DNA of 64,000 nucleotides from Veillonella denticariosi JCM 15641 (GTDB lineage Bacteria; Bacillota; Negativicutes; Veillonellales; Veillonellaceae), in NCBI RefSeq assembly GCF_002959855.1, contig NZ_PPDB01000003.1, positions 434,001 through 498,000 of the forward strand. The letters are read 5' to 3'. Shown piece after piece: positions 2,438 to 58,930 of the stretch; positions within the stretch are counted from its first letter, which is position 1; each line of letters starts with the position of its first letter. Both the position numbers and the translations under genes were made by a program. The notes under the pieces are model-generated. The model was not told where the DNA came from, searched no databases, and saw only the letters and a list, made by a program, of their open reading frames with translations.

Positions 2438-3322
2438 ATGGAACATACAAATAAAAAAGGGCTGCTTATGGCCCTCAGCTGTTATATCATATGGGGATTA
2501 CTCCCTATTTACTGGGCACTCTTACAACATATTTCCCCTTATACCGTGCTGGCCCATCGCATCATATGGTCCGGCATCTTTATGGCTTTCATCGTTATAG
2601 GCATAAATTTTACACAATTCAAAAAGGACTGCCACCATTTATGGACACATCGCTCACAAATCGTGCTGCTCCTATGTGCCGCACTACTGGTCAGCCTCAA
2701 CTGGGGCACCTATATCTGGGCCATCGCGAATAATCATGTTATGGACACCAGTCTCGGCTACTATATCAACCCGCTCCTCAATGTCCTGCTGGGTGTCATC
2801 ATTTTTAAAGAGGTCCTCACGTTTCCGAAAAAGCTCAGTGTCGCTATCGCCGCCTTGGGCATCGCCTTTCTTACGTGGCAACTGGGCTCTCTGCCGTGGA
2901 TTTCCGTAGCCCTCGCCGTCTCATTCGGTCTCTACGGCGCGGTAAAGAAAAAACTGATCATCCATCCGTTCACGAGCATCGCCCTCGAAGCATGGATTGT
3001 AACCCCTCTCGCCGTATTGTATACGATGTTTATCGACACATCGTCATGGTCCTATTTCGGCACGGACTGGAATACGACCTTGCTGTTCATCGGATCCGGC
3101 CTGACCACATCGGCTCCGCTCATACTGTTTTCGTATGGCGCCCGCCTGTTGCCGCTTAATGTACTCGGCTTTCTGCAATACGTATCGCCTACCATCGCTT
3201 TACTCTTGGCGATCTTCTACTTCGGTGAAAGCTTCACTACGACGAACATCATCGCCTTCTCCTGTATCTGGCTCGCCCTCATCATCTTTACGATGTCGAA
3301 TCAGTTGCAACGGAACAGATAA
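2438..3322 (+). CDS. rarD: RarD-type EamA/DMT permease
   Basis: A 294-residue integral membrane protein with about ten hydrophobic segments. The opening KGLLMALSCYIIWGLLPIYW and later AHRIIWS and NWGTYIWA are typical of RarD (chloramphenicol-sensitive protein) in the drug/metabolite transporter superfamily. The substrate is unknown for most RarD proteins. The start at 2438 follows CAGGAGGC, and a TATAAT-like hexamer lies near 2402. It is a single gene, convergent with the TPR lipoprotein gene and divergent from mutA. Confidence 0.88.
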   Translation: MEHTNKKGLLMALSCYIIWGLLPIYWALLQHISPYTVLAHRIIWSGIFMAFIVIGINFTQFKKDCHHLWTHRSQIVLLLCAALLVSLNWGTYIWAIANNHVMDTSLGYYINPLLNVLLGVIIFKEVLTFPKKLSVAIAALGIAFLTWQLGSLPWISVALAVSFGLYGAVKKKLIIHPFTSIALEAWIVTPLAVLYTMFIDTSSWSYFGTDWNTTLLFIGSGLTTSAPLILFSYGARLLPLNVLGFLQYVSPTIALLLAIFYFGESFTTTNIIAFSCIWLALIIFTMSNQLQRNR

Positions 3323-3347
3323 AATATATATTCAACATATAAACAAT

Positions 3348-3446
3348 ATAGCCTCTCCGCTATGAGAGATTAACATCTATTGTACGCCCCGATATTAGAT
3401 TGAACTTGATCTGATATCGGGGCGTACTTCATAGTGAAGAGGCTAT
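3348..3446. terminator. Nested bidirectional terminator between convergent genes
   Basis: The inner inverted repeat is 14 bp and perfect (GTACGCCCCGATAT at 3382-3395 against 3414-3427). It is enclosed by 17-bp arms with a few mismatches (3348-3364 against 3430-3446), with A- and T-rich ends. The position between rarD (+) and the TPR gene (-) fits a shared terminator. Confidence 0.75.
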
Positions 3447-3468
3447 TTTACTATATAAATTGAGTAAC

Positions 3469-4083
3469 TTATTTTATCAGTGCTTCAAAGCGGGGCTGAC
3501 CGTGATATTTCATAAAATGATCCTGCTCCGCCGCCACGGCTTTCACGGACGGGTCGATCTTAATCGCCTGTTCCAACCAGTCGAGGGCTTTTACATCATC
3601 CCCCTGATCCGCATAAATGGTGGCGATACCGTAAACGGACCATGTATTGCGAGGATCCTTTTCCAGTACCCGCTCAAACCATTCCTTGGACTCGTTCAAG
3701 CGCCCCTGCAGTTTATAGACCATCGCCATATTGTAATAATTGGCCACGTTATCGGAATCTAAATCGTAAGCTTTCCTGGTATCCTGCAGGCCCTTGTCCG
3801 TATCCCCCTGTAACGCCTCCGCCATGCCGCGCACAGAGTACGCCTCCGCATTACCCGCATGAGCCGCTATCGATGCGGTCGCCTCCTGTACGGCCTTGTT
3901 GTAATCGCCCGCTGAAAGAGCCGCCTTGGCCGCCGTTACATGCGAATCGGAGTCCTCATTCACCTTGGACTTCTCTACCGTTGTGTCCGCACCGGTCGCC
4001 TGCGTCCTGTCCGTATCGACGCCACACCCCCAAACACCAAACAAACTTACAAACAAACCTATACATAATAGAGTAGATCTCAT
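3469..4083 (-). CDS. TPR-repeat lipoprotein
   Basis: 204 residues. The N-terminus is a short hydrophobic signal ending in a lipobox-like GVWGC, so it is probably lipid-anchored in the envelope. The rest is tandem tetratricopeptide repeats (for example AKAALSAGDYNKAVQEATAS, NWAYYNMAMVYKLQGRLNES-like spacing and WSVYGIATIYADQGD), which normally mediate protein contacts. The start ATG follows GAGGTG. It stands alone. No partner can be named from context. Confidence 0.8.
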   Translation of the reverse strand: MRSTLLCIGLFVSLFGVWGCGVDTDRTQATGADTTVEKSKVNEDSDSHVTAAKAALSAGDYNKAVQEATASIAAHAGNAEAYSVRGMAEALQGDTDKGLQDTRKAYDLDSDNVANYYNMAMVYKLQGRLNESKEWFERVLEKDPRNTWSVYGIATIYADQGDDVKALDWLEQAIKIDPSVKAVAAEQDHFMKYHGQPRFEALIK

Positions 4084-11294: not shown

Positions 11295-12569
11295 CTACTC
11301 TACAATAACCGTGGTTCCGTTCGGAATAATCGTAATCGATGCATCCTCACCTTTAATTCCTCTCGCAATGGATACCGCTTCATCCAGCGTGGAGGCCGGT
11401 ATCATATGCATATCCCGTATCACCTGATGATCACAATCGGTCGTCACCACGATAACAGAATAATGATTCAAAATTCTTGCAAGAATCTGAATTTTCCATT
11501 GATACGGCTTTGTCTCATTCCTCGGAACACCGTGAATATCATCTAATATCTGCTGTGCACTGTCCATGCCCTTAATCGCATCGTACAAAGCCTGTCCGCC
11601 ATGTCCTTCTTTACAGGAAGCCGCCAGAATGATGACACCCCCGTCATTACAGGATGCCTCGGCCGCTGTCATCCCCTTTACGGATTGATAAATATTCTGA
11701 TCCGACGGATAGCCGCCATTACTGGTAATGACGATATCCGCAGGGATACGCTTCACCGACGATAAAGAACGGATAAATTCATACCCTTCTTTGTGAGCAT
11801 CTACGCAATCACCGGCAACAGCTTTGATGATTTCCTTTTTGCTGTCGATGACAACATTGAGAATAAACTGTAAATCGGCTTTTCTCGCGGCATACAGCAT
11901 ATCTTTATGAATCGGGTTTTCATCGATGATACCGGTCCGCGAAAACTCACTTTCAATAAATTCGGCACAATGATTGGCAAGAACAGTCACCTTAGATGCC
12001 ACACCGGGCAGTACCGATTTACGTCCGCCGGAAAATCCCGCAAAGAAATGAGGATTGATGAGCCCTTCCGCAATCAATAACTCCGTCTCTACAGCCAATC
12101 TGTTGATAATACATTTACCCCCTGACGGTAATGTACCGATTTCAACCATATTCGCATCATCCTCGGAATCATGATTGATCAACTTCTCATGATTAACGAT
12201 ATCCTCGCCGAAACGGGCGACCATTTCCTCATGAGTCATGGGCCTGTGAAAGCCTGTGGCAATCAGAATCGTAATATCAATTTCGGGATTCACGGCGCGG
12301 ATACGACGAAGCAAAATAGGCAATGTCACCTTGCTTGGCATCGGCCGCGTATGGTCACTCGTGATAATCACCATATTCTTCCTGCCTTTTACCAAAGCTT
12401 CCAACGAAGGACTGTTAACAGGATGGTCCAAAGCATACTCTACCAACTCGCTCTGACTCAACTCAGCCTGATACGAAGCCGCATTGGACTCCAACACGCC
12501 CGAAACGAAACGCTCATCAAGAGACACATTCAGCTTTTTATAATCATAAGGAAAAGTATACGTTTTCAT
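11295..12569 (-). CDS. larA: LarA, lactate racemase (copy 1)
   Basis: 424 residues from the ATG at 12569, which follows GGAGGG. A longer upstream reading has no site. LarA interconverts D- and L-lactate using the nickel-pincer nucleotide. The key residues fall at the same numbers as in the characterised enzyme: SDHTRP at 71-76, His108 in GFHRP, His174 in PHFFAGFSGGRK, Lys184 (cofactor attachment) and the nickel ligand His200 in ANHCAEF. It is the first gene of larA-larE-larB-larC-tauE, with 77 bp to larE. LarA homologues can act on other 2-hydroxyacids, so lactate is favoured by context but not proven. Confidence 0.92.
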   Translation of the reverse strand: MKTYTFPYDYKKLNVSLDERFVSGVLESNAASYQAELSQSELVEYALDHPVNSPSLEALVKGRKNMVIITSDHTRPMPSKVTLPILLRRIRAVNPEIDITILIATGFHRPMTHEEMVARFGEDIVNHEKLINHDSEDDANMVEIGTLPSGGKCIINRLAVETELLIAEGLINPHFFAGFSGGRKSVLPGVASKVTVLANHCAEFIESEFSRTGIIDENPIHKDMLYAARKADLQFILNVVIDSKKEIIKAVAGDCVDAHKEGYEFIRSLSSVKRIPADIVITSNGGYPSDQNIYQSVKGMTAAEASCNDGGVIILAASCKEGHGGQALYDAIKGMDSAQQILDDIHGVPRNETKPYQWKIQILARILNHYSVIVVTTDCDHQVIRDMHMIPASTLDEAVSIARGIKGEDASITIIPNGTTVIVE

Positions 12570-12683
12570 GATTAACCCTCCGTAGCCGCTAGAACTCATA
12601 TATGTTAAGTATAGCACCGAACCGTATAATCAATCTATAAAATCCACGTGAAAACAAACAGCTTTGAAGCCTTTCCCCCTCCC

Positions 12684-13089
12684 GGTTTCATGTGAAATGA
12701 GACACTCTCTATTAGAAGCTAATCATTTATTGCGTGCATTTCAATAAAAAACTCTTCGAAAAACGACTTAGCGCCGCAAGGGTAGAGCTTTAAATCCCCC
12801 TCTTGGTTTCATGCAAGGAGAGGCGCCATTAGAGACATTAATAATCGTTTTTTGTAAACAGTATTAGGACAATTGGCGCCTCTGTAGCCGAAGTTTTATA
12901 AATAAATAAAATACACCGGCAGGAAAACGACTTAGCGCCGTAAGGGGTGGCTTTGGAGGCTTTCCTGCCGGTGTATTTTTCAATATATTAAGTTCATATC
13001 AATAAAACTTCGGCTACAGCCAACAATCTTACATACTGGACGCAAAAAACGATTTAGCCTCCTTGAGGCGCCCTCGTTCGCATGAAACC
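12684..13089. repeat. Array of inverted clcA 3'-end copies with conserved cores
   Basis: The segment at 12805-12926, read on the plus strand, resembles the minus-strand transcript of the clcA end and its 3' flank (13089 down to 12961). Shared blocks include GGTTTCATGC, GGCGCC, AATCGTTTTTTG, CTGTAGCCGAAGTTTTAT and the 19-bp terminator arm. A second, more decayed copy lies at 12684-12762. Each copy is followed by the core (ACGACTTAGCGCC at 12927 and 12763). The homology covers about 19 codons of clcA plus its stop. Together with 12570-12683, which shows nothing else, this fills the gap between larA and clcA. Confidence 0.75.
12908..12979 (-). terminator. clcA terminator with conserved 34-nt apical core
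   Basis: A 19-bp perfect stem (12908-12926 against 12961-12979) with T-rich ends on both strands encloses a 34-nt loop, ACGACTTAGCGCC...GGTGGC...GGAGGC. It is one of five hairpins in the window with this loop and unrelated stems. Confidence 0.8.
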
Positions 13090-14576
13090 TGCAACTCATC
13101 ACCGGCCTCAATCACCACATCCCGCAACGGCACGATATATGTCCCGTTTCGTCTGATGCTGACAATCAAAACCCCGTCCGGTACACTCAGGTCCTGCAGT
13201 TGTTTGCCGATATACGGTGCCACTACAGGTACCTTAGTCTGAAAGAAGGTTTGTACCGCTTCCAGATTGCTTTGTCTGCTCATAGCACGCAATAAGGAGT
13301 CATAAATTGGCGGTTCTTTCAACAATTCCGCTACCAGATAGGCAACAATGGTCACGATACCGATGGCGTAAATATTTGAAAAACTGTTCGTCATTTCAAG
13401 AACCAGCAGAATTGCTAAAATCGGGGTTCGCATTGCCGCCGCCAGCATACCGCCCATCGCACAAATGACGAACTGCGGCACATAATCACCGGAAATAAGT
13501 TGAAGTGACGACAGGAGGCTTTCACAAAAAGCACCGGTCGCCGCACCGATAACGAGCATGGGCAAAAAGATGCCCCCCTGCGCACCGCTGCCATAGCAGA
13601 ACGTGGTCAACAAAATCTTGCCCATGACGATGCCCGCAAGGAGCCACACCCCATGCGACTGAAATGCCAAATGCCCCACCAGATCATTGCCGCCGCCCAG
13701 CAACAGCTGCGAATCAAAGCCGATAGCCGCCACGGCGACAAATGTAATGACTAATTTCAAAAACCGGGAACATTTGAGCCAGTCAAAGAAACTTTTAAAC
13801 GCGAAAATCATTCGGCAGAAAAAGACGCCGCACAATCCCGTCAGCACGCCCACACCGAGAAGGGACGGGAAATATTCCAGAGGCATCCCCGTCGTCACGG
13901 AAAATCCCAGCGCCGGCTCGAGGCCGAAGATACTGACCGTAATGTAATTGGAAATCAACGCCGCCACAAAGGTAGGAATGACGAGGTACGGATAAAAACT
14001 CTTATGCACCTCTTCAAAAACGAACATCGCCCCCGACACGGGAGCGCTGAAGGCGGCAGTCAAGCCGGCCGCAGCACCGGCGGAGGTGAGTATACGCTGT
14101 TCCCGTAAACCTGAATTCATCCAGTAAGACACGATTTTACCGGCAGAGCCGCCGATTTGTACGGCCGGACCTTCCCGCCCCACGGAGAACCCCGCAAAGC
14201 CCGTCAACACACCGCCAATCATCTTGGATACAAACGTACGATACGGTTTCATATCGAACAAGCCCAGCATTTCCCCTTCAATTTGAGGAATACCGGATCC
14301 GCCGGACAACGGCGCCCACTGTAGCAGGCGATCCACGATAAAGGCAAATAAAATCATCCCTGCGAGCCAAATGAGCGCCCATTCGAGTGAAATTCCATCC
14401 ATCAGTCCCCAACGCACATGCTCCGATTCAAGGATTAAATAGCGATACGTGGCGCCGCCGAACCCGGCGATAACACCGACCAAGGCGCCTTTCAGAATCA
14501 ATTCGGATAACAGAATGCGATTCATGGACATATTCGCTAAGGTGGAACTGCGTTTATTCAATTTCCATAATTTCAT
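13029..14576 (-). CDS. clcA: ClC-family chloride transporter with C-terminal TrkA_C domain
   Basis: 515 residues. The ClC ion-path motifs are present: GSGIPQ, GREGPAVQIGG (with the gating glutamate typical of Cl-/H+ exchangers) and GAQGGIFLPML. The last ~85 residues (VVAPYIGKQLQDLSVPDG... AGDELQVSC) form a TrkA_C/RCK-like regulatory domain. The start ATG follows GGAGGGAC. GSGIP argues for chloride and against the fluoride-specific CLC-F branch. It lies between the two larA genes, on the same strand as the lar operon. A role in balancing charge or pH during organic-acid use is inference. Confidence 0.9.
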   Translation of the reverse strand: MKLWKLNKRSSTLANMSMNRILLSELILKGALVGVIAGFGGATYRYLILESEHVRWGLMDGISLEWALIWLAGMILFAFIVDRLLQWAPLSGGSGIPQIEGEMLGLFDMKPYRTFVSKMIGGVLTGFAGFSVGREGPAVQIGGSAGKIVSYWMNSGLREQRILTSAGAAAGLTAAFSAPVSGAMFVFEEVHKSFYPYLVIPTFVAALISNYITVSIFGLEPALGFSVTTGMPLEYFPSLLGVGVLTGLCGVFFCRMIFAFKSFFDWLKCSRFLKLVITFVAVAAIGFDSQLLLGGGNDLVGHLAFQSHGVWLLAGIVMGKILLTTFCYGSGAQGGIFLPMLVIGAATGAFCESLLSSLQLISGDYVPQFVICAMGGMLAAAMRTPILAILLVLEMTNSFSNIYAIGIVTIVAYLVAELLKEPPIYDSLLRAMSRQSNLEAVQTFFQTKVPVVAPYIGKQLQDLSVPDGVLIVSIRRNGTYIVPLRDVVIEAGDELQVSCERGRLKEAKSFFASSM

Positions 14577-14913: not shown

Positions 14914-16191
14914 ATGAAAACGTTTCACCTTCCCTATTCTAAAAGCACCGTTGATATTCAAATTCCAGAAGCACGGATTGCAGGCGTACTGGAATCCAGG
15001 GCACACTCATACAAACCTGAGCTTTCACAGGAAGAGCTCGTCGAAAGTGCATTGGATCATCCTATAGGGAGTAAATCATTAGAAGAGCTGGTAAAAGGAA
15101 AGTCAAATATGGTCATCATTACAAGCGACCATACGAGACCCGTTCCCAGCAAAATCACGATGCCGATTCTGTTACGCCGTATCCGCAGCGCAAATCCGTC
15201 CATAGACATCACGATTTTATTGGCAACAGGATTTCATAGACCGACCACAAAAGAGGAAATGATCGATAAATTCGGTAAAGATATCGTGGCCCATGAAAAA
15301 ATTGTAAATCATATTTCGGGAGATGCGTCCCAAATGGTCAAAATCGGGGTTCTCCCATCCGGTGGAGATTGCATTATCAATAAAATCGCCGTCGAAATGG
15401 AACTGTTAATCGCCGAAGGCTTCATTGAACCTCACTTCTTTGCAGGCTTCTCGGGCGGTCGTAAATCGGTACTTCCGGGCATAGCATCGGAGGTGACGGT
15501 CATGGCGAACCATTGCGCGGAATTCATCAACAGCGCCTATGCACGAACCGGTATCATTAAAAACAACCCGATTCATAAAGATATGGTCTACGCAGCGCGT
15601 ACGGCTAAACTCGCCTTTATTTTAAATGTTGTCATCGATGCCGATAAACACATCATCAACGCCTTTGCGGGTGATATGGAGGAAGCCCACGAAAAAGGTT
15701 GTGCCTTTGTATCCGATTTAGCCAGTGTGAAAGCCGTACCTGCCGATATCGTTGTCACTACTAACGGCGGCTATCCGTTAGATCAAAACATTTATCAGTC
15801 CGTAAAAGGCATGACAGCGGCCGAAGCTACTTGTAAGAAAAATGGCGTCATTATCATACTTGCCGCATGTAATGACGGTCATGGAGGCCAATCCTTATAC
15901 GAAAATCTGAAAAATGCGACTACACCGAGAGAATTACTCGACAGAATCGCCAAAGTACCGCGAAATGAGACGATTCCCGATCAATGGGAAATGCAAATTT
16001 TAGCTAGGATCTTAGATCAGTTCACGGTTATTGTCGTAACAGATCAATGCGATCCGCAAATGTTAACGGATATGCATTTAGAACACGCCTATAACTTTGA
16101 CCAGGCATTACAAACAGCAATGAAAAAGGTCGGTGAAGATGCCAAAATCACGGTTATCCCTGACGGTGTATCCGTGATCGTGAAACAATAA
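14914..16191 (+). CDS. LarA-family nickel-pincer racemase (copy 2)
   Basis: 425 residues, closely similar to the LarA at 11295-12569 over its whole length and with identical numbering of the key residues: DHTRP (His73), His108, His174, Lys184 and His200. The start ATG has AAGGAG upstream. It is transcribed alone and in the opposite direction from the lar operon, so it depends on that operon for cofactor but is regulated separately. It may be a second lactate racemase or a relative for malate or another short 2-hydroxyacid. The sequence alone cannot decide. Confidence 0.88.
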   Translation: MKTFHLPYSKSTVDIQIPEARIAGVLESRAHSYKPELSQEELVESALDHPIGSKSLEELVKGKSNMVIITSDHTRPVPSKITMPILLRRIRSANPSIDITILLATGFHRPTTKEEMIDKFGKDIVAHEKIVNHISGDASQMVKIGVLPSGGDCIINKIAVEMELLIAEGFIEPHFFAGFSGGRKSVLPGIASEVTVMANHCAEFINSAYARTGIIKNNPIHKDMVYAARTAKLAFILNVVIDADKHIINAFAGDMEEAHEKGCAFVSDLASVKAVPADIVVTTNGGYPLDQNIYQSVKGMTAAEATCKKNGVIIILAACNDGHGGQSLYENLKNATTPRELLDRIAKVPRNETIPDQWEMQILARILDQFTVIVVTDQCDPQMLTDMHLEHAYNFDQALQTAMKKVGEDAKITVIPDGVSVIVKQ

Positions 16192-16296: not shown

Positions 16297-16336
16297 TCGA
16301 ACTCCGACTTATAAAACATATATAATCACATAGAAA

Positions 16337-16412
16337 AAGGCTATACATAATCGCTCGGAACAGCCCTTTATTACAAAGTCCTGTTCATATAAATACGATT
16401 ATGTATAGCCTT
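16337..16412. terminator. Bidirectional terminator between larA copy 2 and fucO
   Basis: A 17-bp perfect stem (AAGGCTATACATAATCG at 16337-16353 against 16396-16412) encloses an inner GAACAG/CTGTTC pairing. It has A- and T-rich flanks and sits between convergent genes. Confidence 0.8.
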
Positions 16413-16456
16413 CTTTTTCTTAACCTGCAGATTTCATTAAAACCTTGTAGATCTTA

Positions 16457-18959: not shown

Positions 18960-19236
18960 ACAAAGTTAGTAGCAAAAAAAATTGCTTGCTGAAAACGACT
19001 CAGTTCACCAAACGAATAACCTGCTAATTTCTATCTCTATTCTCTCAGAAAAAGCTTAATACGAAGAAGGGAATGTCCAGCTGAAAACGACTGCGCGCGA
19101 AGCAATACTCCTCCCCTAGGAAAAATGTTAATATGTAAAAATGGACTGTTCTAGGAAAACGACTTGGCGCTGCGAAGCAGGTGGCCTCCGGAGTCTTTCC
19201 TAAAACAGTCCATTTGCAAACCTATTAAATTTTTCC
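18960..19236. repeat. Array of inverted 3'-end copies beside the BFD gene
   Basis: Three segments ending in GAAAACGACT (about 18978, 19083 and 19155) each resemble the 3' end and 3' flank of the BFD gene read from the minus strand. The best copy, 19119-19158, matches 19236 down to 19196 and includes GGAAAAAT...TAAT, which is the gene's last codons and stop. The two upstream copies are decayed. The rest of the 18893-19224 gap shows nothing else. Confidence 0.6.
19138..19215 (-). terminator. BFD-gene terminator with conserved 37-nt apical core
   Basis: A 20-bp stem with one G-U (19138-19158 against 19196-19215) encloses ACGACTTGGCGC...GGTGGC...GGAGTC. On the minus strand it is followed by TTTTT and begins about 10 bp after the gene's stop. 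Confidence 0.8.
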
Positions 19237-19458: not shown

Positions 19459-19577
19459 ATGATTCCTCGTCTATTCACTTGAATACTTTCATTAACTATA
19501 TCGAAATTTTACAATTTCTACAATCAGTATATCACAACTTTCAAACTATATCGATAGTTTTTAATATATCTAATGAA

Positions 19578-19635
19578 AAATACCTCTTGTGAAAGCTGAT
19601 GTAACTGAGTTTTTCTGCTTTCACAAGAGGTATTT
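19578..19635. terminator. Bidirectional terminator built around GTGAAAG motifs
   Basis: A perfect 19-bp stem (19578-19596 against 19617-19635) whose arms contain CTTGTGAAAGC and its complement. It lies after the M50 protease gene and before the BFD gene, both on the minus strand. Confidence 0.8.
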
Positions 19636-19656
19636 ACAGATCAATAGCATATAAAG

Positions 19657-20289
19657 TTATAAAATAAAACCCACTATACGCACAAAGAGTTGAAAAATGG
19701 TTTGTTGTAAAGGGATAAAAATCGCCCTTGCAATAGGACTGTTCAAGAATAAAACCAACAGAACCAGCCACACCATATTAAATTGGTAAATATTGAACTT
19801 CCATTCCCACGGCAATAAATTCGTGATGATATGACTGCCGTCGAGCGGCGGAATAGGCATCATGTTGAGTATAGCAAAGTTAATATTATACAGAACAATG
19901 AGCATTAATACGAGTTCTAACGACTGATTCTCAAGTAAACCATATTTATCGAGAATCCCCATAACAAGATAACCTATGAACGCCATGATAAGATTTGCCA
20001 CCGGCCCTGCAATGGACACAAGGGTATCATCGGTACGCGGATCATTAAAGTTCATCGGATTAATCTGGACCGGCTTTGCCCAACCGAACCCGGCGATAAG
20101 TAATGCCAATGATCCTATCAAATCAAGATGGACTATAGGGTTTAGCGTCAATCGCCCCATGGCGCGTGGCGTAGGGTCCCCTAACATATCAGCTACCTTG
20201 GCGTGTGCATACTCATGCCCCGCAGCAGCAATAATCAGCGCCGGTATGGCCGCAAGAATCATTTCCAGACTAAAACCAGATAATAACAT
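19657..20289 (-). CDS. Site-2 protease family membrane protein (M50)
   Basis: 210 residues from the ATG at 20289, just after AAAGGAG. A longer reading overlaps the upstream gene. The zinc motif HEYAH is in the first membrane segment, and NMMPIPPLDGSHI supplies the second motif (the third zinc ligand is Asp in PPLDG). Family members cleave substrates inside the membrane. This short form lacks PDZ and other regulatory domains. It starts 10 bp after the carboxymuconolactone decarboxylase-like gene and is probably co-transcribed with it. Confidence 0.88.
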   Translation of the reverse strand: MLLSGFSLEMILAAIPALIIAAAGHEYAHAKVADMLGDPTPRAMGRLTLNPIVHLDLIGSLALLIAGFGWAKPVQINPMNFNDPRTDDTLVSIAGPVANLIMAFIGYLVMGILDKYGLLENQSLELVLMLIVLYNINFAILNMMPIPPLDGSHIITNLLPWEWKFNIYQFNMVWLVLLVLFLNSPIARAIFIPLQQTIFQLFVRIVGFIL

Positions 20290-27515: not shown

Positions 27516-28125
27516 CCTTGGCGCACGAAGTGTAGGGTCTTCAAATCCTCCCTTACGAGGCTTAGTTAAAGATCTAATTTTAACTCATCAAATAGAACGC
27601 CCCTATCTCTAAAAACGACTTGGCGGCGCAGCAGTGGCCTTGGAGTCCCCCTGCGAGGTCTAGTTAAAGATCTAATTAGTCAGTAGCAGCTTAAATACAG
27701 GAATGAACATAGCTCCTAAAGCGACTTTGGCACACGAAGTGGGTGGCCTTCGGAATCCTCCCTTACGAGGCTTAGTTAAAGATCTAATTTTAACTCATCA
27801 AATAGAACGCCCCTATCTCTAAAAACGACTTGGCGGCGCAGCAGTGGCCTTGGAGTCCCCCTGCGAGGTCTAGTTAAAGATCTAATTAGTCAGTAGCAGC
27901 TTAAATACAGGAATGAACATAGCTCCTAAAGCGACTTTGGCACACGAAGTGGGTGGCCTTCGGAATCCTCCCTTACGAGGCTTAGTTAAAGATCTAATTT
28001 TAACTCATCAAATAGAACGCCCCTATCTCTAAAAACGACTTGGCGGCGCAGCAGTGGCCTTGGAGGCTTTTAGAGATAGGGGCGTTCCTTCATATTTGAT
28101 ATAAAATTAGAGCTTTAACGCCTCT
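27516..28125. repeat. Array of inverted arsC-like 3'-end copies, partly in 210-bp tandem repeats
   Basis: The block from about 27541 repeats with a period of 210 bp (2.5 copies; CCTTACGAGG at 27551, 27761 and 27971). Each period holds two diverged half-units. Each half-unit is a copy of the arsC-like gene's end (GAGGC..AGTTAAAGATCTAATT, compare its last codons, stop and flank read from the minus strand) followed by a core (ACGACTTGGCGGC or GCGACTTTGGCACAC). The last half-unit, 27977-28034, pairs with the gene end at 28068-28125. Confidence 0.8.
28015..28087 (-). terminator. arsC-like gene terminator with conserved 33-nt apical core
   Basis: A 20-bp perfect stem (28015-28034 against 28068-28087) encloses ACGACTTGGCGGC...GTGGC...GGAGGC. 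It begins 20 bp after the stop. The same 5' arm occurs in the two earlier 210-bp units without a matching 3' arm. Confidence 0.8.
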
Positions 28126-28460
28126 ACCCATTCGGCCTCTTTAAACCCGACGAGTACGCGGTCGTCCAGCACCAGAATAGGACGTTTCACCAACATCCCG
28201 TTCGATGCCAACAAAGCAAGTTTTTCCTCTTCACTGAGATTTGGCAACTTATCCTTCAATTGCTGCTCACGATATATCATACCGGACGTGTTGAAGAATG
28301 CTTTCAAATCCTTTCCGGATTGAGGATACCATGCCGCAATTTCCTCAGCTGTCGGATTTTCCGATTTGATATCACGATCGGTATATTTAATATTGTGATC
28401 GTCTAAAAATTTCTTTGCTTTTTTACAAGTTGTACATTTCGGATATTCTACGAATAACAT
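28107..28460 (-). CDS. ArsC/Spx-family thioredoxin-fold protein
   Basis: 117 residues, the family length. YPKCTTCKKAKKFLDDHNI gives a CxxC near the N-terminus, and NGMLVKRPILVLDDRVLVGF supplies the conserved RP loop. This is the YffB/ArsC-like group. Some members reduce arsenate with glutathione or thioredoxin, others act like Spx. No arsenic genes are near, so a specific role cannot be given. Confidence 0.88.
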   Translation of the reverse strand: MLFVEYPKCTTCKKAKKFLDDHNIKYTDRDIKSENPTAEEIAAWYPQSGKDLKAFFNTSGMIYREQQLKDKLPNLSEEEKLALLASNGMLVKRPILVLDDRVLVGFKEAEWVEALKL

Positions 28461-36603: not shown

Positions 36604-36667
36604 ATGGCGGGTGACCTTGGAGGCTATTTCTATTATTGCAAGGCCCTCTGAAAATAAGCTAATACAC

Positions 36668-36743
36668 AAAAGAATCCCCCTCCTAAAAACGACTTAGCGC
36701 ACGTAGTGGGTGGCTTGCTGGAGTTTTTAGGAGGGGGATTCTT
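36668..36743 (-). terminator. Terminator with conserved apical core after small secreted protein gene
   Basis: A 21-bp perfect stem (36668-36688 against 36723-36743) encloses ACGACTTAGCGCACG...GGTGGC...GGAG. It begins 14 bp after the stop of the gene at 36758. Confidence 0.82.
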
Positions 36744-36757
36744 TGCTCACTAATAGA

Positions 36758-37129
36758 TTATTTTCCCCAGAGGGCCTGCATAACTTCCGCCCCCATGGTA
36801 TCCCCTTCAATTTTCATCGGTTTTTGTGCTTTTTTATTGGTCAATAGCGCAATCCCCGCATTGCTGTACACGGTTGATTCAAGTTCCGTCCACATTTTTG
36901 CATTGCGATCGATACGCACCGTATAAATGTAGGTAAAGCCTTCCACGTTATTGACCTTTACCAATACGGTCGCCATATCATCCGTTTTATACACGGACGC
37001 ATTATCGATAAACCAGGTCGCATCATCAGCATCCGCATCAATATAATACCAATCTGCCGCATTCGCCTGTCCGAAACCGCCAGCAAACATTACCCCTGCC
37101 ATAACAATGGCAACTAACCATTTTTTCAT
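36758..37129 (-). CDS. Small secreted protein, family B
   Basis: 123 residues with a signal peptide (KKWLVAIVMAGVMFAGGFG, cleavage near ANA) and mature start ADWYYIDADADDATWFIDNA. It is homologous to the product at 33073 and more weakly to that at 21285. It ends MQALWGK. AAGGGG precedes the ATG. Function unknown. Its 3' end is the source of the inverted copies next to it. Confidence 0.8.
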   Translation of the reverse strand: MKKWLVAIVMAGVMFAGGFGQANAADWYYIDADADDATWFIDNASVYKTDDMATVLVKVNNVEGFTYIYTVRIDRNAKMWTELESTVYSNAGIALLTNKKAQKPMKIEGDTMGAEVMQALWGK

Positions 37130-46475: not shown

Positions 46476-46530
46476 GCTGGTGGGTGGCCTTTTCCTCTAT
46501 ACCCAACGCCTTAAAATAATAACTCAGCTA

Positions 46531-46604
46531 GATAAAAAAGACCCCAAAAACCGACTTAGCGCGCAACGCGGTGGCTTCGGAGGCTTTTTGGGGTCTTTTT
46601 TATC
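46531..46604 (-). terminator. ompH terminator with conserved 34-nt apical core
   Basis: A 20-bp perfect stem (46531-46550 against 46585-46604) encloses CCGACTTAGCGC...GGTGGC...GGAGGC. On the minus strand the stem ends in TTTTTTATC. It is 11 bp after the stop. Confidence 0.82.
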
Positions 46605-46615
46605 CTATAAACGGA

Positions 46616-47074
46616 TTATTTTTTAAGGCGTTTAATTACTTCATCGGTAATATTTTCAATTTTGCTGTCTTTATCAGCCGCACGGATTGTGTATGGATCA
46701 TCCAATACTACATCCATATGTTTTTCAACGCGGATTGTTTCTACTGCGTTGTGAATGGACTGCATCATAGGTTCAGCAATTTTATTGATTTCTTCGTTTT
46801 CCTTTTGAAGCAATGGAGCTACGGATTTATTGAATTCAGCTTCAGCTTGTGCTTTATCCTGAATTTTTTCAATTTCAGCAACTTTCTTCTCAATTTGTGG
46901 ACGGTATTGAGCATCTACCTGTTGCATTTTCATATCCAAAGCGCCATAACCGGGATAGCTGTTAACTACTTGACTCATATTCACCAAGCCGATATTAGCC
47001 GCACTTGCTACAGCTGCAGTAGCGGAAAGAGCGCCAACAATAGCCAGAGTTGTTAATTTCTTAGTTACGTTCAT
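46616..47074 (-). CDS. OmpH/Skp-family periplasmic chaperone
   Basis: 152 residues after GAGGAGG. A signal peptide (KKLTTLAIVGALSATAAVASA) precedes NIGLVNMSQVVNSYPGYG, the OmpH opening, and a long helical coiled-coil region (about residues 45-110). Such chaperones carry outer-membrane proteins across the periplasm, so the cell is diderm. It is not next to bamA or lpx genes here. Confidence 0.9.
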   Translation of the reverse strand: MNVTKKLTTLAIVGALSATAAVASAANIGLVNMSQVVNSYPGYGALDMKMQQVDAQYRPQIEKKVAEIEKIQDKAQAEAEFNKSVAPLLQKENEEINKIAEPMMQSIHNAVETIRVEKHMDVVLDDPYTIRAADKDSKIENITDEVIKRLKK

Positions 47075-56373: not shown

Positions 56374-58806
56374 ATGTATATATTTGACGGTGCCATGGGC
56401 ACAATGCTACAAGCCGCAGGCTTGGAAGAGGGGTATTGTCCCGAATTATTCAACATAGAAAAGCCAGATGTGGTAAAGAACATTCACATGCAATACCTAC
56501 AACATGGCAGTGATATTATTACAACAAATACATTCGGCGCCTGTGGTCTAAAACTGGAAGACTACGAATTACAAGATCGTGTAAAAGAAATAAATATAGC
56601 CGCTGTAAAGGTGGCAAGAGAGGCCATAGCGGAATGCAAGCCGAGTGCTCGCGTAGCCGGTTCAATGGGGCCTACAGGACGTTTTCTACAACCTTTAGGT
56701 AATATGAGCTTTGACTCTATTTATGATACGTATAGAGAACAGGCCGAGGCCTTAATTGAAGGCGGAGCCAATTTTATCATCATAGAAACAATCATCGATA
56801 TCCAGGAAATGCGTGCCGCCTTATTGGCATCCTTGGATGCTCGGGAAGCAATGGGGAAGACAAAGGAAGATGTTCAAATCATCTGTCAGTTTTCTTTCAG
56901 CGAAGACGGACGTACCATTACGGGGACACCGCCGGAGGTGGCGACTACCATTGTGGAAGCAATGGGTGCAGATATCGTCGGTATCAACTGTTCTCTAGGC
57001 CCGGAACAGATTAAACCGCTCATAGAAAAGATTGCAAGCGTCACTAATTTACCGACTATCTGTCAACCAAACGCAGGTATGCCGCAACTTATCAATAAAA
57101 AAACCGTATTTCCTCTCACGGCGAAGGAAATGGGACCGTTAATGTTACCTATTGTAGATGCAGGTGCCACCTATGTGGGCGGCTGCTGCGGCACTACACC
57201 GGCGCATATTAAATGCATTGCTGAGAACGTAGCGACACATACACCAAAAGAACGGGCTCATATAGAGCCTAAAACAATCATCACAAGCCGCACTAAATTA
57301 TTGGAACTGGGACATCATGTAAAACCGCTCATCATCGGCGAGCGTATCAATCCAACAGGTCGTAAGGTTCTCGCACAGGAGCTTCGCGACGGATCCTTCA
57401 TACGCGTAAAACGCGATGCTCTTGATCAGGTAGAGGCCGGTGCTGATATTCTCGACGTCAATATGGGCGTAGCCGGTATGGATCAGACACCGTTGATGGA
57501 AAAGGCGATTTTCGAACTGTCCATGCTGGTTGAGACACCCTTATCCATTGATACATTAGATCCTGCTGCGATGGAAGTCGCCCTTAAAAATTATCCGGGA
57601 CGCGCTCTTATCAACTCCGTAAATGGGGAGGAGGAGTCCATCACTCACGTTATGCCGTTGGCAAAACGATATGGCGCAGCACTACTATGCTTGCCGCTCT
57701 CCAGCGGTGACCTTCCTGAAAGGGCGGAGGATCGTGTTGCTTTAGCTGAAAGCATCGTTAATCGTGCCTATGAGTACGGTTTACAGAAACACGACCTATT
57801 GCTGGACCCTTTGGTACTGACACTTGCCAGCGGCGAGGACAGCGCACGCCAGACCTTACGTACATTACAGCTATACAAAGAAAAATTCGGCTTTCCGACG
57901 GTGATGGGTTTATCCAACATTTCCTTCGGTATGCCGCAACGACCATATTTAAACAGTCAATTCTTAACGATGGCCCTCGCATCCGGTTTGACAACACCGA
58001 TTATGAATCCGTTAAATTATCCTGCAAAAAAAGCCTTCGTATCCAGCTGCACTCTGCTCGGATGGGATCCGGGCTCCGCGGAGTTTATCAAGGAATACGG
58101 CTACGAAGACGAAGCGAGTGCGCCGGGCAATACAGCACCAAAAGGACCTGAAAAGAAAAGCTTTGACAGCAATGATCCGTTGGCCAATATCCGTGCCTGT
58201 GTAGAGCAGGGGGAGAAGGAGGCCATCATAGACCTCGTAAAGAAAGCCCTAGCTGACGGCATCGATCCGTTGGACATCACAAAGAAAGGCTTATCCGAAG
58301 CGATGAACGTCGTAGGCGATAAATTCGGTTCAGGCAAACTGTTCCTGCCACAAGTTATGCTCGCTGCGGAAACGATGCAGGCCGCTTTCAACACGATCAA
58401 AGAAATCATTCCGGCCAGTGAAAGTCTCGATAAAGGTACCGTCGTGGTAGCAACCGTAAAAGGGGATATCCACGACTTGGGCAAGAATATCGTTGCGGCA
58501 CTGCTCGAAAATAACGGCTACAAGATTGTCGACCTCGGAAAAGACGTAGATCCGGAGGAAATCGTGCAAGCCATCAAGGATAATAAGGCGGCCCTCGTCG
58601 GCATCTGTTCCCTGATGACCACCACGATGCCGCAAATCGACAACACCATCGCCGCCATCCGCGCAGCCGGCCTTAAAACCAAGGTCATGGTGGGGGGCGC
58701 CGTCGTTTCTCAAGACTATGCGGACCAAGCGGGCGCAGATATCTATGCAAAGGACGGTATCGCAGCCGTTAACCAGGCTAACGACTTTTTTGAAACATTG
58801 AAATAA
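56374..58806 (+). CDS. metH: Cobalamin-dependent methionine synthase, short form
   Basis: 810 residues after AAGGAAG. Domains in order: homocysteine-binding (FDGAMGTML, INCSLGP, VGGCCGTTPAH with zinc cysteines, about 1-290), methyltetrahydrofolate-binding (IIGERINPTGRK, LDVNMGV, about 305-560) and B12 cap/binding (KGDIHDLGKNIV, His near 700). No activation domain follows. That function is in the gene at 55390. It methylates homocysteine using the methyl-folate produced by MetF. Confidence 0.95.
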   Translation: MYIFDGAMGTMLQAAGLEEGYCPELFNIEKPDVVKNIHMQYLQHGSDIITTNTFGACGLKLEDYELQDRVKEINIAAVKVAREAIAECKPSARVAGSMGPTGRFLQPLGNMSFDSIYDTYREQAEALIEGGANFIIIETIIDIQEMRAALLASLDAREAMGKTKEDVQIICQFSFSEDGRTITGTPPEVATTIVEAMGADIVGINCSLGPEQIKPLIEKIASVTNLPTICQPNAGMPQLINKKTVFPLTAKEMGPLMLPIVDAGATYVGGCCGTTPAHIKCIAENVATHTPKERAHIEPKTIITSRTKLLELGHHVKPLIIGERINPTGRKVLAQELRDGSFIRVKRDALDQVEAGADILDVNMGVAGMDQTPLMEKAIFELSMLVETPLSIDTLDPAAMEVALKNYPGRALINSVNGEEESITHVMPLAKRYGAALLCLPLSSGDLPERAEDRVALAESIVNRAYEYGLQKHDLLLDPLVLTLASGEDSARQTLRTLQLYKEKFGFPTVMGLSNISFGMPQRPYLNSQFLTMALASGLTTPIMNPLNYPAKKAFVSSCTLLGWDPGSAEFIKEYGYEDEASAPGNTAPKGPEKKSFDSNDPLANIRACVEQGEKEAIIDLVKKALADGIDPLDITKKGLSEAMNVVGDKFGSGKLFLPQVMLAAETMQAAFNTIKEIIPASESLDKGTVVVATVKGDIHDLGKNIVAALLENNGYKIVDLGKDVDPEEIVQAIKDNKAALVGICSLMTTTMPQIDNTIAAIRAAGLKTKVMVGGAVVSQDYADQAGADIYAKDGIAAVNQANDFFETLK

Positions 58807-58930
58807 TTCATTATATTATTAATTTTTATATAATAATTAGAATTATTTATATAACTAAAACAATTTATATAAACAATGTAATCTATTTCATTACAATAAA
58901 CCATAACACTGAATTACTGAATTACACCGA

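Follow-up and report, generated by a model that had tools for sequence, protein, structure and literature searches.

Analysis of the window, the whole stretch of 64,000 nucleotides from Veillonella denticariosi JCM 15641 (genome G000, contig C3, about 4-68 kb from dnaA), revealed an imperfect palindrome of 285 bp with a loop of 34 nt at positions 12805-13089, 3' of a clcA-like gene. The gene (13029-14576, minus strand) encodes 515 amino acids and takes its name from reading of the sequence, without a family search. It is flanked by two genes, alike by eye and located on opposite strands (11295-12617 and 14914-16191), and lactate racemase (LarA) domains are present in the second of these.

The palindrome, recognised by alignment, shuffling and folding, is arranged around a loop (12927-12960, plus strand) in which pattern and covariance evidence identified a family core and a variable inner hairpin. 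The inner stem is formed by a 5' arm on the core strand (12908-12926, plus strand) and a gene-side 3' arm (12961-12979, plus strand), which pair perfectly at 19 of 19 positions; the 5' arm is further marked by the G.T bias of the inner stems of the family. On the gene side, inverted-repeat alignment extends the arm through the clcA 3' flank (12980-13028, minus strand) into the last 61 bases of clcA, comprising its last codons and stop codon (13029-13089, minus strand), which on species comparison are presumed to be the original of the inverted copy in the left arm. That copy, with the inverted 3' flank, makes up copy unit 1 (12805-12907, plus strand; alignment and shuffles) on the ACGACTT side of the core. 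Beyond it lie a second core (12760-12782, plus strand), represented in the sequence by its ACGACTT half only, and an older, decayed copy unit 2 (12684-12759, plus strand), which by eye is missing in the sister species G009.

Outward of the inner stem, three more inverted pairs were aligned as far as 12805/13089, and a fourth joins 12684-12696 to 13077-13089. Comparison of the outer arms alone (12805-12907 against 12980-13089) gave a local alignment score of 40, against a maximum of 17 in 2000 dinucleotide shuffles. The clcA coding part alone scored 25 (shuffle maximum 14) and the middle part of the arms 19 (shuffle maximum 16). Folded as single-stranded DNA, the palindrome stretch reached -74.5 kcal/mol (z -13.3). 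A chance origin of the palindromes is ruled out by the shuffled-sequence controls, and an assembly artefact is ruled out because palindromes recur at orthologous loci in separate genomes. An earlier note on this DNA had described 12805-12926 as an inverted copy of the clcA end and flank at 12961-13089, separated by a 34-nt core and perfectly paired over the inner 19 bp; this description was borne out, the arms outside the inner 19 bp outscoring all 2000 shuffles. Its claim of a further decayed copy with a core of its own held in part. Copy unit 2 is a weak copy (12684-12760 against the inverted clcA end, score 20, shuffle maximum 19; directly against copy unit 1 with the core excluded, score 20, matched by one of 2000 shuffles), but its core is a half-core without the GGAG half.

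Within the coding end of clcA, positions 13047-13060 on the plus strand read AAACGATTTAGCC, near the core half ACGACTTAGC. This is possibly a coincidence. Homologues without the palindrome have a different sequence at this place.

A Veillonella hairpin family with a conserved core

G000 has 11 occurrences of the pattern AACGACTTRGCG..GTGGC, including three in one tandem array; a reversed control has none. The core consists of two conserved strands lying across internal loops, with an inner hairpin that is variable and paired and an outer stem that is free in sequence. Among 10 sequences, 20 of 28 stem pairs were changed on both sides, a level reached in none of 500 shuffles. The core is found in different forms: in many hairpins of other Veillonella it is shorter and lacks the inner hairpin, and a third form is present in G006 and G013.

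A covariance-model search, in which the best 150 of some 320-600 first-look candidates were scored per Veillonella genome, found matches (E up to 0.01) in 13 of the 14 Veillonella genomes, and none (E up to 1e-4) in 14 genomes of other members of the family. The single match in G005 is without the ACGACTT core and the matches in G001 have a changed core. Spread outside Veillonella was rejected, as inspection by eye revealed no paired arms at six matches in other genomes and one on a viral contig, all of which appear to be chance matches. Comparison of positions 11000-47000 of the window with Rfam 15 (E up to 1) gave two weak, unrelated matches, neither on a core. The Veillonella core hairpin is apparently an undescribed RNA hairpin family.

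Scanning revealed further core palindromes on the plus strand of the window. The one at 19119-19236 has no called coding overlap. At 27565-28119 a core palindrome (27985-28119) and two further tandem units of 210 bp, supported by alignment, stand at the end of an ArsC-like gene (28107-28460). The palindrome at 36641-36777 overlaps the end of the gene 36758-37129 (alignment by eye), and that at 46505-46632, studied by species comparison, overlaps the end of an OmpH-like gene (46616-47074). Comparison by eye of 65 inner arms, a few of them from outside Veillonella, found no conservation between loci. Against this stand a weak common composition of arms and a G009 hairpin with 79% identity, over 110 nt that include the core, to another at a distance of 9 kb. 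No common function was found among 10 neighbouring proteins, nine of which adjoin a core palindrome and one of which has no Pfam match. Two cores of opposite orientation stand about 340-500 bp from each other at 113 kb and again at 134 kb of contig C1 of G000, and the first such pair is conserved in the orthologues of G003, G007, G008 and G010 (L099-L102).

Among the matches listed for five complete genomes, all lie less than 470 kb from dnaA (16 loci in G009, KS p 1.9e-6; six each in G007 and G008; five each in G010 and G012). In the G009 list, both core orientations occur on either side of dnaA, which speaks against a fixed relation to fork direction. Counting of long palindromes (at least 80 bp and 48 bits) gave 14 in 200 kb near the G009 origin versus three in 200 kb near the terminus. 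The counts elsewhere were 11 in 100 kb of G007, two in 80 kb of G010, 16 in 140 kb of G006 and 30 in 120 kb of G013, at least five of the last being another, unrelated repeat. None was found in 800 kb of shuffled sequence, nor in four genera from other families of the order, of each of which the first 80 kb, taken to be origin-proximal, was scanned.

Some long palindromes in the same genomes have no recognised core. Those of the window include 3315-3481, 16334-16415, 19555-19666 and 58804-58916, some of which reach the stop codons of neighbouring genes. Relative to G009, the right arm at 3315-3481 in G000 differs by a cluster of changes and an insertion of 9 bases, which seemingly make the pairing better. 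The other repeat of G013 is centred around TTAGAACAGGCSTGTTCTAA, palindromic, partly tandem and unrelated to the core (L157:9297-9463, L158:3142-3318, L159:17682-17911, L160:3154-3267 and L161:12422-12832). In G007, about 0.8 kb before dnaA, a palindrome of 306 bp (L155:19267-19572) has perfect outer ends of 24 bp and a core-like centre.

Inner stem and outer arms

Comparison of the arms of 27 palindromes revealed an identity of about 0.9 in the inner 20 nt, followed by 0.69-0.86 per 10-nt bin out to 139 nt; the value of 0.96 in the last bin (24 positions) is an alignment edge effect. Similarity is indeed lower outside, as the earlier note had it, but it drops in a step at about 20 nt and does not fall off gradually outward.

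The two zones also differ in their mismatches. On the core strand, inner-stem mismatches were G.T in 42 cases versus A.C in 11 (55 distinct clusters, p 2e-5), and 69 versus 16 over all 80 hairpins. The outer arms are without bias (62 G.T versus 52 A.C in 30 palindromes, p 0.40), and so is a count over all arms of G000 and G009 in which both layers are mixed (65 versus 55). Because the bias is limited to the inner stem, the inner hairpin, unlike the outer arms, appears RNA-like on the core strand. Covariation beyond all 500 shuffles and tolerance of G.T pairs on one strand, as expected of a structured RNA, are found in the inner stem; in the outer arms the G.T tolerance fails. Seven comparisons between G006 and G013 yielded 51 changed pairs that were paired in G013, of which 43 are unpaired in G006 (40 by one change and three by two); the other eight stay paired through two changes, against 1.2 expected, and most of them are near the core.

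An A-rich/C-rich order with a weak common composition was found in 36 arms, from which a T-rich 3' side follows by pairing. Judged by the resulting order of A-rich, C-rich, G-rich and T-rich segments, the inner hairpin probably acts as a transcription terminator or as the 3' terminus of a small RNA. An intrinsic-terminator scanner limited to loops of at most 8 gave no score for this hairpin. A structured Veillonella RNA hairpin on the core strand, whose internal-loop core is conserved and whose stem of about 20 bp is largely free in sequence, is well supported as a first layer.

Orientation, order and ancestry of the copies

Among 57 core palindromes scanned, 39 have a one-sided coding overlap, 11 have none and seven are mixed or crossed by an open reading frame. 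Of these 39, 37 overlap coding sequence on the GGAG side and two on the ACGACTT side of the core, with orthologous loci counted separately; G000 alone gives 9 of 9 and G013 alone 10 of 12. Open reading frames were called mechanically, and the eight overlaps called as gene starts include 46505-46632, which is really a gene end, and one at L049 that depends on an uncertain start codon. One gene-start copy is clear, at a glycosyl transferase family 3 gene (L014), where a Pfam match beginning at residue 3 supports the start. The earlier note had tied the pattern to the clcA gene end; the pattern does occur there, but it is not confined to clcA or to the ends of genes, since at least one gene start has been copied as well. 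By eye, the copies span up to 70 bp of gene ends.

The same polarity is seen in the stacking of units. Of 49 palindromes, 26 have extra AAGTCG half-cores within 260 bp on the copy side and one has them on the gene side, and the half-core motif on the opposite strand occurs nine times on the copy side and twice on the gene side. At the OmpH-like locus two copy units stand in opposite order in G000 and G009, each 96-98% identical over 52-53 nt between the two species, and in both species the gene-side arm pairs with the nearer unit. At the ArsC-like gene, read in nine species, the gene-side arm is of type A in four and of type B in five; the array is A then B in G011 and B, A, B in G003 and G002. 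A hairpin of that kind is absent at this gene in G006 and G013.

Analysis of 20 rows from four genes revealed that the gene-side arm matches the nearest unit in all 20 (z 6.8-12.5; the G013 clcA gene-side arm was cut at the wrong place by the pattern). Farther units number 20, of which 16 are unmatched (z up to 3.9), and the four that match are repeats of the nearest unit. Because hairpins were the basis on which the loci were found, some of the match to the nearest unit is built in, but this does not apply to the swapped order. At 55 kb of C1 in G000 the stretch between two cores has been lost and an arm left unmatched, which is plausibly an intermediate.

Comparison of species bears on which member of each pair is the original. 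Orthologues of clcA are present in all 14 genomes, and the end palindrome in four (G000, G009, G006 and G013). The ten genomes without it keep a related C-terminus, which indicates that the gene is the original and the copy derived, and rules out an inserted element as the source of the clcA C-terminus. As expected of a template-switch product, the inverted copy thus lies beside a pre-existing template. No clean empty site was available, as the palindrome-free loci carry other sequence downstream of clcA.

Across the deep split at clcA, pairs of a copy with its own gene agree at 49 of 57 positions in G000 and 29 of 33 in G013, versus 22 of 34 between the copies, and each copy thus fits the clcA of its own lineage better than it fits the other copy. 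At an aldo/keto reductase gene, against 42 of 56 between copies, the fit to the own gene is seen in G013 (57 of 63) and not in G000 (50 of 68); at three other genes the overlaps are too short to judge. Between G013 and G006 the clcA copies are closer to each other (30 of 33) than to the genes (29 of 33 and 28 of 33). G000 and G009 have only four double changes in 13 comparisons, and concerted evolution at every locus was not seen between this close pair. In these close species pairs (G000 and G009; G013 and G006 at clcA) the copies remain more alike than copy and gene, so no renewal has taken place there since the species diverged.

Proposed fold-back copying and its alternatives

The polarity, the stacking, the own-lineage clcA copies and the exchange of units make up a second layer, and from the comparison of species we infer that a DNA-synthesis process produced it. 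The earlier note had proposed repeated action of either a fold-back or template-switch process or an element copying whatever flank it enters; this proposal is supported by the ancestral clcA end, the own-gene fit at clcA, the stacked units and the arms matching their nearest unit. On the sequence evidence we lean, with modest confidence, towards a two-layer element in which an RNA hairpin is combined with recurrent fold-back (template-switch) synthesis centred on the core that builds and rewrites inverted units. DNA synthesis would repeatedly fold back at the core hairpin. A strand running through the flank on the GGAG/GCCTCC side and then through the core would end on the AAGTCG half, pair with itself and copy the flank from which it came, leaving an inverted copy of the gene edge and its flank on the other side of the core. 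Those events that replace non-coding sequence and re-establish the stem would be favoured by selection. Units would later be stacked, deleted and rearranged by further events, probably with recombination between half-cores, and the gene-side arm would be rewritten to agree with the nearest unit. Confidence in this fold-back reading comes mostly from the swapped units and the polarity. A stronger form is put forward tentatively, as something we rather doubt: the core may be a sequence-specific, polar fold-back writer that, through its hairpin (as DNA or as an RNA transcript) and a Veillonella factor creating or capturing a 3' end, stores inverted gene-edge cassettes in a tandem array and rewrites the gene-side arm, mainly near the origin.

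Alternatively, ordinary terminator hairpins with a conserved loop may have been lengthened and tidied by the usual, rare quasi-palindrome template switching, without involvement of the core in copying. The inner stem is terminator-like in composition, core-less palindromes occur in the same genomes, and creation and repair of stems by template switching are already described by Monttinen and Loytynoja (2022, PMC8794818). A bystander core, however, would not predict polarity relative to the core (37 of 39), and the absence of long palindromes from 80 kb of each of four other-family genera, together with the 14 to 3 ratio between origin and terminus in G009, also argues against this explanation, which we regard as fairly unlikely. 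Still lower in probability is selection for pairing on the entire palindrome, outer arms included, as a long functional RNA hairpin or antisense device. The RNA-type G.T bias of the inner stem is consistent with such a device, as is an identity of the palindromes between G000 and G009 about as high as that of their flanks, whereas the outer arms are free of the bias (62 versus 52) and most changed pairs that were paired in G013 (43 of 51) are unpaired in G006, the eight that stay paired being mostly near the core. Furthermore, because gene ends and a gene start are both copied, the copy has no constant sense relative to the mRNA, and the nine neighbouring proteins are without a common function.

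The units could also be mobile cassettes, moved within or between loci by a putative recombinase with the half-core as its site. Units bounded by half-cores do change order between sister species, and the pair of similar hairpins 9 kb apart in G009 would suit such movement, but arms are mostly specific to their locus and units hold copies of the adjoining gene, which would not be expected of a moving cassette. Y1_Tnp domains, with RAYTs and other Y1 transposases taken together, are present in 12 of 14 genomes without visible relation to element number (one match in G000; 14 in G004, many of them fragments, with no elements), which gives no sign of a Y1 transposase as the mover. RVT_1 was found in three of 14 genomes, with one match in G009 and none in the element-rich G000, G006 and G013, and copying by a resident reverse transcriptase or retron is disfavoured for that reason. 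We consider mobile cassettes highly improbable.

Under the preferred reading of core-centred fold-back, the loci form a natural series in which an inverted copy of a coding edge seems to have arisen, stacked up, changed places and decayed, and sister species apparently represent different stages. They allow tests of how long stems arise and stay paired, which is an open question in RNA evolution, and of whether a short sequence can direct fold-back DNA synthesis. To the genus Veillonella, common in the human mouth and gut, this study adds an apparently undescribed RNA hairpin family and a gradient away from the replication origin.

Among the papers listed in searches of the open-licence PubMed Central literature, some of them directed at Veillonella, no described element of such kind was found. 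To our knowledge, the combination of a conserved core, arms written by the locus, polarity and stacked inverted copies of gene edges matches no known system. REP/BIME, ERIC and similar families are small intergenic hairpins, often near gene ends, whose arms are conserved between loci. The Veillonella family likewise consists of small hairpins near genes, but it conserves the loop core while its arms vary by locus; the wide variation of stem pairs in 10 sequences sets it apart from REP/RAYT-type elements. Integron attC arrays combine folded palindromes, a conserved part with variable stems and ordered units of captured genes, whereas the Veillonella units are inverted copies of neighbouring gene edges. 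Fold-back inverted duplications of yeast and human genomes similarly copy a flank by hairpin priming, but they are large rearrangements, and the Veillonella inverted copies are short, recurrent and tied to a sequence. Template-switch mutation (PMC8794818) likewise makes reverse-complement copies beside their template and restores stem pairing. It is described there as a mutational process without a dedicated sequence, while the Veillonella copies come with a conserved core, a polarity and tandem units, in one genus and in one region of the chromosome.
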